A program made the position numbers and the translations under genes. Shown piece after piece: positions 34,711-60,105 of a stretch of 64,000 nt of DNA. The DNA is taken from positions 69,327-133,326 of the forward strand of contig NZ_AFCF02000003.1 of the NCBI RefSeq assembly GCF_000203975.2, read 5' to 3'. The notes beneath the pieces are model-generated. The model was not told where the DNA came from, did not search any database, and saw only the letters and a list, made by a program, of their open reading frames with translations. Position 1 is the stretch's first letter, and every line of letters starts with the position of its first letter. This stretch comes from Leisingera sp. ANG1 (GTDB lineage: Bacteria; Pseudomonadota; Alphaproteobacteria; Rhodobacterales; Rhodobacteraceae).

Positions 34711-35653
34711 CTATGCAGCGTTTTTCCAATCCATGTTTTCATACGCTTGCGCGGGTGTTTGATAGCCGATGGCTGAATGCCGCCTCTGACGGTTGTAGAA
34801 GACCTCAATGTATTCGAAGATCGCAGCCTTTGCCTGGGCGCGCGTTTTGAAGCGCTCCCGATGAACCAGTTCCTTTTTCAGTGATGCGAAGAAACTTTCC
34901 ATTGGTGCGTTATCCAGGCATTCGCCGGTTCGGCTCATTGATTGGATGATCTTCGCGGACCCGAGCAGCGCGCGGTATTCGCTGCCTGCATATTGCACGC
35001 CGCGATCCGAATGATGAATGAGCCCAGGAACGGGGCCACTGCGTCCCAGGGCCATGTTCAAGGCATCATAGCACAGTTCGGATCGCAGATGATCGTCCAT
35101 GGCCCAACCCACGATTTCACGCGTGGCCATGTCCTTGATGGCGGCAACGTAGAGCCATCCTTCGTTCGTATCGACGTAAGTAATGTCCACTGCCTGACAG
35201 TGCATTCGCATCGCGAATGTCACGAGAAGGGTCGAGCCAAACCCGGTTCGGAACGGTACAATTGAACTGTTGCTCCAACAGATTTGGTGAGGGTTTGAGG
35301 CTGTGATTGCTGTCTGTGGTGCGCGGCTTTCGACGCTTGTGCAGGCGCGGAGAGACCCGGTTTTCCCGCATTATTCTGGCCACACGCCGCTCGGAGACAT
35401 GGATCCCATCGGCGATCAGATCGCGGTGTATGCGCTTTGAGCCATATCGCTTCTTACTTCGAGAGAAAGCCGCTTTGATCTTGGCCAGCAGGTCTGCGTC
35501 CCGGTCGTCGCGCAACTTTTGCCGCTGATTTCGGGCTGGTTGCGACTGAGTAGAACCATAAAACCAACTGCGACCGATCCCCAGAATGCAGCACAGCAGG
35601 GAAATGGGATAAAGGGTCTTATGGGCAACGACAAATGCATGTTTCGCGGTCAT
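34711..35653 (-). pseudogene. IS3 transposase orfB, interrupted by a micro-insertion
   Basis: The N-terminal half begins MTAKHAFVVAHKTLYPISLL and includes KKRYGSKRIHRDLIADGIHV. It is in one frame up to CTVPNRVWL. The catalytic half continues in another frame with DITYVDTNEGWLYVAAIKD, IHHSDRGVQYAGSEYRALL and DNAPMESFFASLKKELVH, giving the D, D and E residues. About 46 inserted bases between VWL and DITYV shift the frame. The ATG overlaps the orfA stop, with an A-rich stretch just before that may serve for frameshifting. Confidence 0.85.
35188..35233 (+). repeat. Micro-insertion beta-4 inside IS3 orfB
   Basis: 46 bases made of two tandem hairpins, CACTG-cctga-CAGTG (35188-35202) and CATTCGC-atc-GCGAATG (35203-35219), then CACGAGAAGGGTC. 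They align along their whole length with the insertion at 57933-57979 in IS21 istA. They split orfB exactly between the VWL and DITY codons. Confidence 0.75.
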
Positions 35654-56005: not shown

Positions 56006-56767
56006 CTCAGCATTTTGCCTTGAGGAACCATCGAAAGCAGGTAGGCGAACGCTGACAGAATTGTCAATTGCCCCGAACCAATAGGTAAGGGCTCGAGGTG
56101 GGCCAAAAGCTGCAAGTTTCAAGAGGGTCAGTTTCAATGGAAATGACCTTTGCAGCTAATGGTTCAGCCAAATTGCCTCAGTAGCCTGTATTGTAATGAA
56201 CCGGCCTGTCAGGCAGTGCCTCTATTAAGTTGGCTTCCCTGCGCGAAGCCGACACTCGGGGCACCCCTAGCTGCAATTGGGGCGGAAGTCAGCTCCGTCC
56301 GGCGACCTGTGGATTCGGGTGACAGATCTCTCTGCAGCATGCTTGAACGGCTGTTTTTTACGCCGCTCAGCGGCGCCCAAAATGATGCAGTTGCGACGAT
56401 TTTGTTGCGGCGAGCACGCGCAGCGAAGAAATCCAAGGTACAAGTTGGGCTCGAACCTGCCGTCCACTGCATGAAGCTGCGACGTCAGCTGCCTGCGTAA
56501 AGAGGGCACAGGATGGCGCCTTGGCTGCGTTTGCAGCGAAAACCGGCCTGTCTTGGGTCAGAAATGCTTGACAATTGGGGTGGAAATGCCTGGCAGGTGC
56601 AGGCAATTTTTCCTTAAAAACAGTCAGCATCGGGTCAGCTTTGCCTGACGTTTGACACAAATTGTCGGGCGACACATAGTTTTGCCATTTGCGACAGAAC
56701 CTTTCCTTTTTCGTGTCTCCAACATCCCCGCTCGCGCCTCCTGTTCCGCCAGTGGTTTCAATCGGCA
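56006..56767 (-). repeat. Intergenic region with interspersed repeat, copy C
   Basis: The complement of about 56423-56462 reads GAGCCCAACTTG (shared with copy B), then TGTACCTTGGATTT and CGCTGCG (shared with copy A). The rest of this 762-bp gap between riboswitch and IS21 shows no supported gene. Confidence 0.4.
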
Positions 56768-57491
56768 TGGAACTTTGACCCCCTATAGGCATCCAAAATT
56801 GACCCCCTGTTTGACGTGCGGTTAGCTGGCCCGATGCGGTGTAGCCTCCACCAAGCGAAGCCGTATCGTGCCAGCGTCGGCTCGACTATTCTCGGGTTTT
56901 GAAGCGCCAGCTCTCGTTGCCCGTTTCGACGATGTCGCAATGGTGGGTAAGGCGGTCGAGCAGCGCGGTAGTCATCTTGGCGTCGCCGAAGACCGAGGGC
57001 CATTCGCCGAAGTCGAGGTTGGTCTTCACGATGATCGATGTGCGCTCGTAGAGGCGGCTGATGAGATGGAACAATAGCTGACCACCGGTTTGTGCGAAGG
57101 GGAGATAGCCAAGCTCGTCGAGGATCAGGAAGTCGAGACGGCACAGCAGATCTGCCGTGCGCCCCTGTCGGTCGGCGCGGGCTTCCGCATCGAGTTTGTT
57201 CACCAGGTCCACAACGTTGAAGAAGCGCCCCCGTCTGCCGCGGCGGATGCACGCCCGAGCGATGCTGACGGCAAGGTGGGATTTACCGGTCCCTGTGCCG
57301 CCGATCAGCACGACATTGCGTTGCTGCGCCAGAAACTCTCCGGTCGCCAGATCACGGACCAGCGCCTCGTTGACCGGCGTGCCTTCGAAGCTGAACTCAT
57401 CGACCTCTTTCGCCAGGGGCAGCTTGGCAATCGTCATCTGGTATTTGATCGAGCGCGCCTGCTTCTCACTGATCTCGGCGTTCAGCAGATC

Positions 57492-57538
57492 GCCCCCTCT
57501 CGGCAGTATGCTGCGCATGCGCCTGCCGGGCAATGGAT
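57492..57538 (-). repeat. Micro-insertion beta-1 in istB
   Basis: 47 bases between the codons for PQQI and DLLNAE. In the gene's direction they read CCATTGCCCGGCAGGCGC, then GCAGCATACTGCC, then GAGAGGGGGC. They align with beta-2, beta-3 and beta-4 and shift the istB frame. Confidence 0.75.
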
Positions 57539-57622
57539 GATCTGTTGCGGTTCGTGCTGACGCTTCACCGCCGTGGCGATGGTCTCATCGTAGGCGGCCT
57601 TCATGCCGTAGAGCTTCAGCTG

Positions 57623-57658
57623 GCTCGTCGTGCCGGAGGCACGCCTACGGCGTGACGC
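57623..57658 (-). repeat. Micro-insertion gamma-1 in istB (in frame)
   Basis: 36 bases that add 12 codons (ASRRRRASGTTS) between VLD and QLKLYG. They hold two overlapping hairpins, CACGCC-gta-GGCGTG and GTGCC-tcc-GGCAC. They share GACGCGTCACGC and GTGCCTC-GGCACGACG with gamma-2. Confidence 0.7.
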
Positions 57659-57742
57659 GTCCAGCACCTGTGATCTTTCCACGGATGTGTCTCCTTAGGC
57701 GGTCATAGCGTTTGCAGTCGGCCACGGGCTCGCAGGTCAGTC

Positions 57743-57776
57743 GCGTCGTGCCAGAGGCACGAATTCAGCGTGACGC
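57743..57776 (-). repeat. Micro-insertion gamma-2 near the end of istA
   Basis: About 34 bases after the TPDA codons. In the gene's direction they read GCGTCACGCTGAATTCGTGC, then CTCTGGCACGAC. They match gamma-1 in both outer blocks and bring a TGA stop into the istA frame. Confidence 0.7.
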
Positions 57777-57932
57777 GTCCGGCGTATCGATGGTCAGCGG
57801 CGGCTCACGATGCCGGGCCAGAATGTTGGTGACGACCGAGGCCGCGGAGGCCCCTTCGTTCAGCGCTTCGGCACAGGCAGCATCCACTGCATCCAGCCCA
57901 TCGGTGGGGATCATGCTCAGGATCTGGACCAT

Positions 57933-57979
57933 CCACTGCCCGGCAGGGCATTGCGCAGCAATGTCCCGAGAGGGGGCTG
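57933..57979 (+). repeat. Micro-insertion beta-2 in istA
   Basis: About 47 bases between KVPNGD and MVQILSM. On the plus strand: CCACTGCCCGGCAGGGC, CATTGC-gca-GCAATG, then TCCCGAGAGGGGGC. This is the best-preserved beta copy and the closest to beta-4 in the IS3 element. Confidence 0.78.
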
Positions 57980-58072
57980 GTCGCCATTGGGCACCTTGCC
58001 CAGTTTGCGCTGAATGCGCCTGATCGCTGATGGCAGCTCCCTGTCCTTGAAGGGAGCCCCATTCCTGAGGGC

Positions 58073-58113
58073 GTCCCGCTGCCCGGCAGCGCATGCGTGC
58101 ATGCGCGAGAGGG
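58073..58113 (+). repeat. Micro-insertion beta-3 in istA
   Basis: About 41 bases between VLARKP and ALRNGAPF. On the plus strand: CGCTGCCCGGCAGCGCATGC, GTGCATGCG, then CGAGAGGGGG. It is two bases or more shorter in the middle arm than beta-2. Confidence 0.75.
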
Positions 58114-58560
58114 GGCTTGCGGGCCAGCACCGGGATGTAGTGCAGCGGATCGTAGATGGCCTTGTCGCGCCCGAAGGCTCGTTCATGCCGCCCTACGATC
58201 TTGCCGTCCTGCCAGAACTCGACCCGCTTGGCATAGGCGCGGATCTCGACTGGCCGGCCGACGGCGCGGCCATCCACCGAGTAGCGGTTCTTGTCGAACC
58301 GGACGAGACAGGTCTTCGAGACTGATGCCGGAACAGCGTGGAAACCATCAAAGGGGCTGACGTATGGCACCAGACTCGCCCGCTCATCCTCGAAGACCTC
58401 CCAGATCGTGCGGTCTCGAAGCTCTTGGTGCGGATGAGATTTGGCCCAGGCGGCGCAGCGATCCTCGAGCCAGGCGTTTAGTTCGGCGTAACTCTTAAAC
58501 TTGGGCCTGGGCACGAAGAAGCGACGCCGGACAACGCCTGCCTGGTTCTCGACCTGTCCA

Positions 58561-58600
58561 CTCGCCATTGGGCTCGAACCAATGGCGCCTCAATGGCTCG
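58561..58600 (+). repeat. Micro-insertion alpha-4 in istA
   Basis: About 40 bases between ASGWE and GQVENQ, next to the catalytic Glu codon. The stem is CGCCATTGG/CCAATGGCG with loop GCTCGAA, then CCTCAATGGCTCG. Confidence 0.78.
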
Positions 58601-58725
58601 TTCCCAGCCCGATGCTGGTGTGCAGGCAACGGGATCGACAAGATAATGCCCGCACATCTGCTGGAAGCGCCGATTGCAGGCCCGGTCGCGGCCAACGAAG
58701 ATCGTGTCTGCCGCCGTCTTCGCGT

Positions 58726-58761
58726 CCATTGTCCTCGGACCAGTGGCGGACAATTTCCGCT
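58726..58761 (+). repeat. Micro-insertion alpha-3 in istA
   Basis: About 36 bases directly after the codons for RGIYD, the second catalytic Asp. On the plus strand: CCATTGTCCTCGGACCAGTG, then GCGGACAATTTCCGCT. A near-identical insertion occupies the same codon position in the second IS21 istA at 60029. Confidence 0.78.
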
Positions 58762-58827
58762 GTCGTAGATCCCGCGCGTGCAGGCCCCGCCGAAGAAGGC
58801 GAAGGCCTTGTCATGGGCATCGAACAT

Positions 58828-58870
58828 CGAGCCATTGGGAGCGCCATTGGTCCAAGCGGCAATGGCGAGG
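58828..58870 (-). repeat. Micro-insertion alpha-2 in istA
   Basis: 43 bases between PRETQE and MFDAHD, in the opposite orientation to alpha-1, -3 and -4. On the minus strand: CCTCGCCATTGCCGCTTGGA, CCAATGGCGC, then TCCCAATGGCTCG. Confidence 0.76.
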
Positions 58871-59342
58871 CTCCTGCGTCTCGCGCGGATAGGCCCGGAC
58901 AAACAGCATGCGGCTGTGGCAGAGCCGGACATGCGCTACATTCACAGTGGTGGTCGCACCTTCGATCACAACAATCTCGTGGCTCCAGTCAAATTGGTAG
59001 GCCTCGCCCGGATCGAAAATCAGCGGGACATAGGCGGCCGCGGTGGCCTCTTGTTCTTCCTTGGACCACGTGGCCGCGTAACGCCGGACAGCGTCATAGC
59101 CGCCGTCATATCCAAGGGCTCTCAGTTCTTCGAAGATCCGGATGCGGGTTAACCGCTCGCGCTTTGGCTTCCTCGCATTCGCCGCCAACATCTCTTCGAG
59201 CTTGTCTTTCCATGGCCCGATCTTTGGCAGAGGCTGAACGCGGCGTTCGTAGGTTGCTTCCGTCACACCAGACCGGATCACCTTCCGCACCGTATTCCGC
59301 GATACCCGCAGTTCCCGGCAGATTTGCTTGATCGGCTTGTTC

Positions 59343-59380
59343 GGCATTGGCCTCGGACCAATGGCGGCTCAATGCCTCAA
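59343..59380 (+). repeat. Micro-insertion alpha-1 in istA
   Basis: 38 bases between the codons for AYFQ and NKPIKQ near the istA N-terminus. On the plus strand: GGCATTGGCCTCGGACCAAT, GGCGGCTCAATGCCTCAA. The stem is CATTGG/CCAATG. Confidence 0.76.
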
Positions 59381-59557
59381 TCCTGAAAATACGCCCGCCG
59401 GATCTTTGCTATCGTCTCCACGACCAACATCCCACTCTGTGCTCCCCGATAACCTCGAGGGCATGATTCACATCAGTGTAAGGGGGTCATCTTTGGACGC
59501 CGATTTCCCCGCTACGGGGTCAAAATTGCATGCCTGTTCACACGTTCGGGTGCTGTT

Positions 59558-60105
59558 GTGCCCCGGTTTCAGGTCCCGCAGCGTCCGAGCAAGCTGGATC
59601 CATTCGCGGACAAGCTGTCTGCTTGGCTTGCCGCGCAATCGCGCAAGCCCCGCAAGCAGCGGCGCACGGTTAAGCAGCTGCATGTGGACCTGGCGGCTCT
59701 CGGCTTTACCGGCTCGTACGGGCGGGTGGCGGCCTTCATGCGGGCATGGCGCGCGGTACGCCAGCGCGTTCAGCAGTCGTCAGGCCGCGGCACGTTTGTT
59801 CCGCTGGCGTTTCAGCCGGGCGAAGCCTCCCAATTCGACTGGAGCGAAGACTGGGCGATTCTCGGTGGAGAGCGCACCAAGCTCCAGATTGCCCATATCA
59901 AGCTGTCGCACAGCCGGGCCTTCCTGGTCTGAGCCTACCTTCTGCAATCCCATGAGATGCTGTTCGACGCGCACTAGTATGCGCTCCGGGTCTCCGGCGG
60001 CGTGCCCCAGCGCGGGATTAATGACAGTGGGAATTGCCCGCCACTGGTTCAAGGGCAATGACCGCGCACACAGCGGTTGAACGGGTCGGCAAAGGCGTTG
60101 AGCTG
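59558..60105 (+). pseudogene. Second IS21-type istA, truncated and decayed
   Basis: A different IS21 subgroup on the plus strand: RPSKLDPFADKLSAWLAAQS, FVPLAFQPGEASQFDWSEDW and KLQIAHIKLSHSRAFLV, then a TGA at 59930, AYLLQSHEMLFDAH, a TAG, and RVSGGVPQRGIND. An alpha insertion follows the Asp codon, and RTAVERVGKGVE resumes in frame. Both the N-terminus and the C-terminal half are missing. It abuts the end of the first IS21, which may have landed in it. Confidence 0.8.
60029..60061 (-). repeat. Micro-insertion alpha-5 in the second istA
   Basis: About 33 bases. On the plus strand: TGGGAATTGCCCGCCACTGG, TTCAAGGGCAATGA. They align with the complement of alpha-3 and lie after the same RGI(Y/N)D codons in a distinct istA. 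Confidence 0.75.

Follow-up and report, generated by a model that had tools for sequence, protein, structure and literature searches.

The GC42 cluster of yeast mitochondria is a palindromic, non-coding, mobile sequence of 42 nt with a two-base target, AG, and an enzyme that is unknown (PMC4478555). RUP of pneumococcus is a small non-autonomous element of 107 bp with a TA target and ends like those of IS630-Spn1, its proposed mover; it was found in more than six insertion sequence (IS) families, it inactivates transposases, and a limiting role was raised as a question (PMC2229807). REP and REPIN sequences are palindromes of 20-40 bp tagged with GTAG or CGTC, mostly extragenic with some inside genes (PMC3733652), and Rickettsia palindromic elements (RPE) are 105-146 bp long (PMC2229807) and occur in assorted genes (PMC3733652). 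The present work concerns three families of short hairpin inserts, alpha, beta and gamma, nine copies of which interrupt an IS21-type element of Leisingera sp. ANG1. The element lies in a window of 64,000 nucleotides (the whole stretch of DNA that was analysed; contig NZ_AFCF02000003.1, positions 69,327 to 133,326), on a contig of 490,815 bases (C14) in a genome of 4.59 Mb. Alpha, beta and gamma are probably ultra-short non-coding hairpin mobile elements of Rhodobacterales, non-autonomous, inserted site-specifically and inactivating transposases.

These small, probably non-autonomous palindromic elements belong to none of the GC cluster, RUP, REP and RPE families. GC42 is nearest to them in size and behaviour, as a mobile non-coding palindrome with a short target, but GC clusters are mitochondrial, a target-site duplication was proposed for them, and the targeting of transposases is not mentioned in the accessible parts of that article (PMC4478555). 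RUP is nearest in effect, transposases of many IS families being hit by it as by alpha and beta (PMC2229807); its 107 bp and TA target set it apart from the Rhodobacterales hairpins, which are 27-44 bp long and leave no duplication. REPs share the small palindromic form (PMC3733652), and the gamma consensus begins with CGTC; the alpha and beta consensus sequences carry neither GTAG nor CGTC at an end. REPs are mostly extragenic, whereas alpha and beta lie mainly in transposases and did not show a mostly extragenic, high-copy pattern, and the Y1 transposase gene was mostly not found here. RPEs are likewise palindromic inserts inside genes of an alphaproteobacterium, but their assorted hosts and greater length contrast with the mainly transposase hosts seen here, where seven of the nine window inserts have a net length that is not a multiple of three and shift the frame. 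No description of such elements in Rhodobacterales was found in the literature searched, from which subscription papers were mostly missing; the accessible part of PMC12306157 mentions neither Rhodobacter nor Roseobacter.

The IS21 element and the anatomy of its inserts

The first-pass annotation had described nine inserts of about 34-47 bp in istA and istB. All nine were found, close to where it had placed them, but with the net lengths given in Table 1. In alignments with IS21 relatives, of which some with annotated istA and istB are present on Paracoccus and Sulfitobacter plasmids, the nine segments were clean insertions; six of nine aligned relatives carried none of them, and filled and empty alleles were seen at all nine sites. 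With the insert columns omitted, istA and istB were restored end to end (764 codons in the reference) without an internal stop, so that the predicted reading through of about 700 codons held except for one in-frame 6-bp deletion. Copies of a family were also found in both orientations as described, beta1 and alpha3 running opposite to the rest of their families. Gradual decay, already doubted in the annotation, was ruled out: the lesions are discrete homologous inserts that are missing from relatives.

Models were made for each family. On the window they gave E-values of 5e-15, 6e-12 and 6e-6 for the beta copies, 2e-12, 1e-9, 3e-8 and 3e-4 for alpha, and 1e-14 and 2e-12 for gamma; the models' own alignments included beta1, beta2, alpha1, alpha4, gamma1 and gamma2, not beta3, alpha2 and alpha3, and the gamma model (R1) was built with a wrong structure string, so that its scores lean on sequence. 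Stronger evidence against chance than these E-values is that empty sites exist and that other genomes contain matches. Curated Rfam families gave no match up to E=1 in positions 56700-59600.

By far the closest relative of the window element was that of Leisingera sp. M527 (88.7%). It carries beta1, alpha2, alpha4 and an apparent beta3 remnant at the edge of a deletion, and it is without the other five inserts (gamma1, gamma2, beta2, alpha1 and alpha3). The more distant Sagittula element has gamma1, gamma2 and beta2 at the same bases as the window, the 27-bp net gamma insert being exact, and the Antarctobacter element has gamma1 and beta2. Since the window bases around these three sites match the Leisingera background, separate insertions are the simplest reading for the window as against Sagittula and Antarctobacter. 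Relatives that share inserts carry other lesions too (stops or deletions), so that, for alpha and beta, the extra bases were not found as part of a working gene. The inserts may account for some IS copies without an annotated transposase in these genomes, such as the filled IS21 elements of Leisingera, Antarctobacter and Sagittula. A 236-bp end fragment of the same IS21 (L002, G000:C14:305996-306231; 98% identical, alpha4 included) lies elsewhere on the contig.

Beta copies form hairpins and are mostly 41 nt long, with variants of 34-43 nt. In their stems 98.5% of cells were paired, and six pairs and 14 cells were changed on both sides (shuffled mean 1.4, 0/500 as high). The target is about CRTC^G: on the left flank the favoured bases are C, then A or G, then T and C, and G is favoured right after them (in 53 and then in 115 contexts). 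Filled and empty alleles, together with this short target word, were observed for both IS21 and IS5 hosts; in IS5, beta was a net insertion of 41 bp with no target base duplicated or lost, and no target-site duplication by beta was found in the filled/empty comparisons of either host. In alpha, the dinucleotides that flank a TC...TC body were complementary in 19 of 24 copies (5.0 expected, 0/2000), nine of the 33 copies being omitted as without the usual body. These end dinucleotides differ between copies yet pair, which is a possible clue to mechanism. When they are counted in, each of the four IS21 insertions of alpha replaces 4 target nt, as read by eye from the alignments.

Short beta-like hairpins of 34 nt were also seen on other contigs (L122-L124; G000:C1:1054385, G000:C17:183540 and G000:C17:165755), the first two apparently intergenic. 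They share a CCCGTCC flank, with GAGGC on the other side, and are possible source copies or terminators. A further beta-like hairpin (L117, G000:C5:13552) lies in DNA that resembles, by eye, the neighbourhood of a tRNA gene.

Dispersal in Rhodobacterales and transposase context

All three families occur widely in Rhodobacterales, a group of mostly marine bacteria. Among 198 genomes from the bacterial family of the host, model matches at E<=0.001 were found in 62 for beta, 34 for alpha and 11 for gamma; a maximum of four candidates was scored per genome, own genome included, and these tallies are therefore lower bounds. A pattern scan for beta over 84,980 species genomes gave at least 118 stretches, among which insert identities are biased upward by a pattern that fixes 30 of 39 positions; among the listed stretches, L283 missed the stricter pattern and L280 gave two places. 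For 78 of the 80 titles listed, the taxa named belong to Rhodobacterales. The other two titles are those of an unclassified alphaproteobacterial bin and of Enemella, the second of which may be a misnamed record. Seven genomes searched with the models at E<=1e-4 gave 50 beta and 15 alpha matches, with 1-16 beta matches per genome. Contigs of a viral collection contained two beta and seven alpha stretches (L363-L371).

The hosts of alpha and beta are mainly transposase genes, from many IS families; those of gamma are mixed. Among reading frames open at the junction, all 14 Pfam families found for beta were transposase domains (29 loci, 111 peptides), and 17 of 18 for alpha were transposase or transposase-type helix-turn-helix domains, with one FCD domain (29 loci, 110 peptides); for gamma, RlmJ and ABC families were found besides transposases (14 loci, 54 peptides). 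These sets omitted L109 and four loci of the window's own IS21 (L037, L067, L097 and L108), and retained L113, also its own. A panel of transposases matched on both sides of the junction at 12 of 29 beta loci, on one side at 7, nearby at 4 and not at all at 6; the corresponding figures for 29 alpha loci were 14, 6, 3 and 6. From the seven-genome survey, the 45 of 65 matches that had loci (30/50 beta, 15/15 alpha; multicopy repeats included) gave 25, 11, 6 and 3. A few of the loci without a panel match can be recognised in another way: L051 and L073 belong to the panel and were barred from self-match, and L068 is an IS21 end by its DNA.

For the 118 beta places among the listed stretches, the panel figures were 50 on both sides, 32 on one side, 10 nearby and 26 without a match, that is, a panel transposase at the junction in 82. 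Beside 34 of the remaining 36 loci (127 peptides; L280 was not submitted and L314 had no frame of 30 aa), the ten families that Pfam found were all transposases, among them IS66 and Mutator types that were missing from the panel; at least 11 of the 34 were without any Pfam match, the tally being 23 matches. Random points matched the panel at the junction in 3 of 500 cases on chromosomes and in 12 of 500 on C14. Frames at random C14 points (100 of 112 peptides submitted, overlapping repeats of points dropped) gave 59 Pfam families, and no transposase is among the 25 of these that were listed. In the 453 kb of C14 that were scanned, matches at E<=0.01 numbered five for beta and eight for alpha; all of these, and the two gamma places, lay in or beside IS sequence. 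With these random controls a preference for IS transposases was observed for alpha and beta. The spread over ordinary intergenic DNA that would have spoken against the annotation was not seen for these two families; gamma fits less well, and several of its copies look intergenic.

Repeated insertion and its possible explanations

The 115 flank pairs of beta fell into 68 site clusters, 43 of which had a transposase match at the junction. At several sites diverged transposases are filled at the same base. In the transposase reading strand, synonymous divergence (dS) and the ratio of nonsynonymous to synonymous change (omega) were 1.54 and 0.05 for L074/L075, 0.5-1.3 and 0.09-0.15 for L079/L091, and 0.61 and 0.12 for L050/L053; L046/L057 is among the same-site pairs with dS 0.5-1.5 and omega 0.05-0.17, and L137/L138 had an omega of 0.28. 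The coding strand was not fixed in this computation, so that some of its 50 rows, which are not independent, read the other strand: pairs of the L137/L138 type gave 0.23-0.28 or about 0.9 according to the strand that was read, and one of the two values for L050/L053 (0.12, 0.25) has the same origin. The low omega at dS 0.5-1.5 indicates that the host transposases were under selection until recently or still are, and it disfavours one old insertion followed by neutral drift. Different stem subtypes occupy the same site. That transposases which have diverged under constraint are filled at one and the same base, and often by differing subtypes, shows that insertion recurs. In one genome (G134), three IS5 copies that are 84-86% mutually identical are filled at one codon boundary (MI^D) by 41-bp inserts of the same sequence, and their flanks begin to differ within a few bases of it; separate insertion is a simpler reading than gene conversion with very short tracts. 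Together with the filled and empty alleles and the transposase context, these cases bear out the suggestion of the first-pass annotation that active small elements, or a host process, land repeatedly in transposases.

Filled ISs are also multicopy, and occur at one site across genera. Three IS5 copies on one contig of G035 are identical over 919-923 bp, with two beta inserts each. All three have a further nonsense codon in common, and the plasmid that this contig matches, pDSHI04 of Dinoroseobacter shibae, also carries a relative that is free of inserts and annotated as an IS5 transposase, which makes movement in trans plausible. An IS3 element of G075 (L137, G075:C1) has four model-called beta inserts and a fifth found by eye. 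It is present as two complete copies, 99.1% identical over 1,479 bp, and as two partial copies, one of the four being on another contig. In the Leisingera genome itself, an IS3 with an in-frame alpha insert is present in three copies, 99.9% identical.

As the alleles show, beta enters as a hairpin at its target word with the target bases neither duplicated nor removed, and alpha, as read from the alignments, replaces 4 target nt by a hairpin with mutually complementary outermost dinucleotides. If alpha, beta and gamma are site-specific mobile elements, they would be non-autonomous and moved by an activity supplied in trans; most inserts would shift the frame and so inactivate the transposase, and filled ISs would keep spreading since intact relatives can mobilise them, by which the inserts would be dispersed too. 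The mover must tolerate a very small hairpin, leave no duplication and recognise short words, features that resemble single-strand (HUH) transposition. Handles for finding the enzyme are the covarying stems, the defined target word, the alpha end dinucleotides and the recurrent sites. The elements may be among the smallest bacterial mobile DNA units, and their concentration in transposases makes the question raised with RUP, whether mini-elements restrain insertion sequences, testable across an order with many filled and empty alleles.

Several points weigh against this account. No mobilising enzyme was found, and the account gives no reason why transposases should be favoured over ordinary intergenic DNA. 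Of 500 random points on the IS-rich plasmid pDSHI04, 73 had a panel match at the junction. Part of the panel came from flanks of the elements, so that only the Pfam tests escape circularity. Some copies look intergenic (L117, L122 and L123 by frames, and several gamma copies) or are without a transposase match (L093, L095), and at least 13 of the 118 listed beta places are without any transposase evidence. Some same-site pairs had an omega of 0.3-0.5 (pairs with L160, 0.33-0.49), and L084/L085 reached 1.27; near-identical copies within one genome gave 0.26-0.53. Between the window IS21 and Leisingera sp. M527, omega was 0.32 for istA and 0.17 for istB, as against 0.02-0.10 for other pairs, and this lineage is therefore partly decayed. 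The IS5 case of G134 could still be one of gene conversion with very short tracts.

An alternative that we hold to be rather unlikely is unbiased insertion followed by selection and hitchhiking, in which elements land anywhere, harmful ones are lost and IS-borne ones are copied by the IS. Transposases are dispensable genes, and the several near-identical copies of filled ISs per genome, and filled sites common to different genera, are as expected from such copying; but 68 site clusters, 43 with a transposase match, are too many separate events for copying alone, and copies would on this reading be expected to be more numerous in intergenic DNA than in transposases.

A dedicated, sequence-guided process is a less likely possibility. 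A host- or element-encoded activity would recognise transposase genes of unrelated IS families, often at catalytic or conserved motifs, and write hairpins there that limit IS activity; Rhodobacterales would then have either a defence of a writing type directed at insertion sequences or a parasite that specialises in them. It would fit the mainly transposase context across unrelated families, the nine inserts in one IS, and the recurrence at conserved positions (MI^D in IS5, KIE^RWH and LTD^ITY in IS3, IYDN^M in IS21, and the Walker A motif of IstB), several of which abut catalytic or conserved motifs. However, no gene encoding such an activity was identified; the association with catalytic sites was noticed after the fact, and many inserts lie elsewhere; and filled ISs are multicopy, so that their spread was not stopped.

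Movement as REP/REPIN-type elements by a Y1 (HUH) REP transposase is improbable. The small hairpins, the short left target word and the lack of duplication agree with it, and Y1_Tnp was commoner in beta-bearing genomes (11/62 against 7/136 others; Fisher p=0.007). This RAYT-type domain was, however, not found in the Leisingera genome or in 51 of the 62 beta-bearing genomes, which does not support a Y1 transposase as the general mover, and the location is mainly inside transposases instead of extragenic. Removal or skipping of the inserts at the RNA or translation level (byp-like), leaving a working transposase, is very unlikely. In its favour, the filled transposases are open and constrained apart from their inserts, ISs that carry inserts have moved recently, and each of the three copies of the Leisingera IS3 has its insert in frame; but both orientations are common (17 same as the gene and 26 opposite, of 43 distinct sites), which disfavours a role in RNA, and the G035 IS5 copies occupy three places despite their nonsense codon.

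Features of the window

The coordinates of the IS21 element, its inserts and two further matches in the window are given in Table 1. A second broken or truncated IS21-type istA fragment (59558-59932; NF033546 match) directly adjoins the main element.

Table 1. Positions in the window of the IS21 element, its genes and inserts, and further matches.
Feature	Positions	Strand	Basis and remarks
IS21-type insertion sequence (ISPkr1-like), host of the nine inserts	56768..59530	-	full-length alignment with IS21/ISPkr1-like relatives; IstB and IS21 transposase models
istB, broken by beta1 and, near its start, gamma1	56886..57682	-	NF038214 IstB, E=1.8e-72 on 56886-57533; extent from alignment
istA (ends approximate, overlaps istB), broken by gamma1, gamma2, beta2, beta3 and alpha1-4	57585..59430	-	NF033546 on two fragments; extent from alignment
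beta1 insert, 41 bp net	57495..57535	-	alignment and beta model; common to Leisingera sp. M527
gamma1 insert, 27 bp net (hairpin with flanks 57626-57657)	57629..57655	+	alignment and gamma model; site filled in Antarctobacter (24 bp) and Sagittula, empty in Leisingera sp. M527
gamma2 insert, 27 bp net (hairpin with flanks 57744-57775)	57745..57771	+	alignment and gamma model; site filled in Sagittula, empty in Leisingera sp. M527
beta2 insert, 41 bp net	57934..57974	+	alignment and beta model; site filled in Antarctobacter and Sagittula, empty in Leisingera sp. M527
beta3 insert, 37 bp net	58077..58113	+	alignment and beta model; deletion there in Leisingera sp. M527, edge resembles a remnant
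alpha1 hairpin with terminal dinucleotides, 42 nt (38 bp net)	58560..58601	+	alignment, alpha model, end-dinucleotide test
alpha2 hairpin with terminal dinucleotides, 39 nt (35 bp net)	58722..58760	+	alignment and alpha model; site filled in L089, L096 and, by a different version, in Leisingera sp. M527
alpha3 hairpin with terminal dinucleotides, 44 nt (40 bp net)	58827..58870	-	alignment, alpha model, end-dinucleotide test
alpha4 hairpin with terminal dinucleotides, 42 nt (38 bp net)	59339..59380	+	alignment, alpha model, end-dinucleotide test; also in IS21-end fragment G000:C14:306148-306207
further beta copy inside an IS3-type transposase	35188..35230	+	beta model, E=2e-7; Pfam rve and HTH_21 in frames either side
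weak alpha-like match, about 100 bp past the open frame of the second istA fragment	60032..60060	-	alpha model, 15.6 bits, E=0.001

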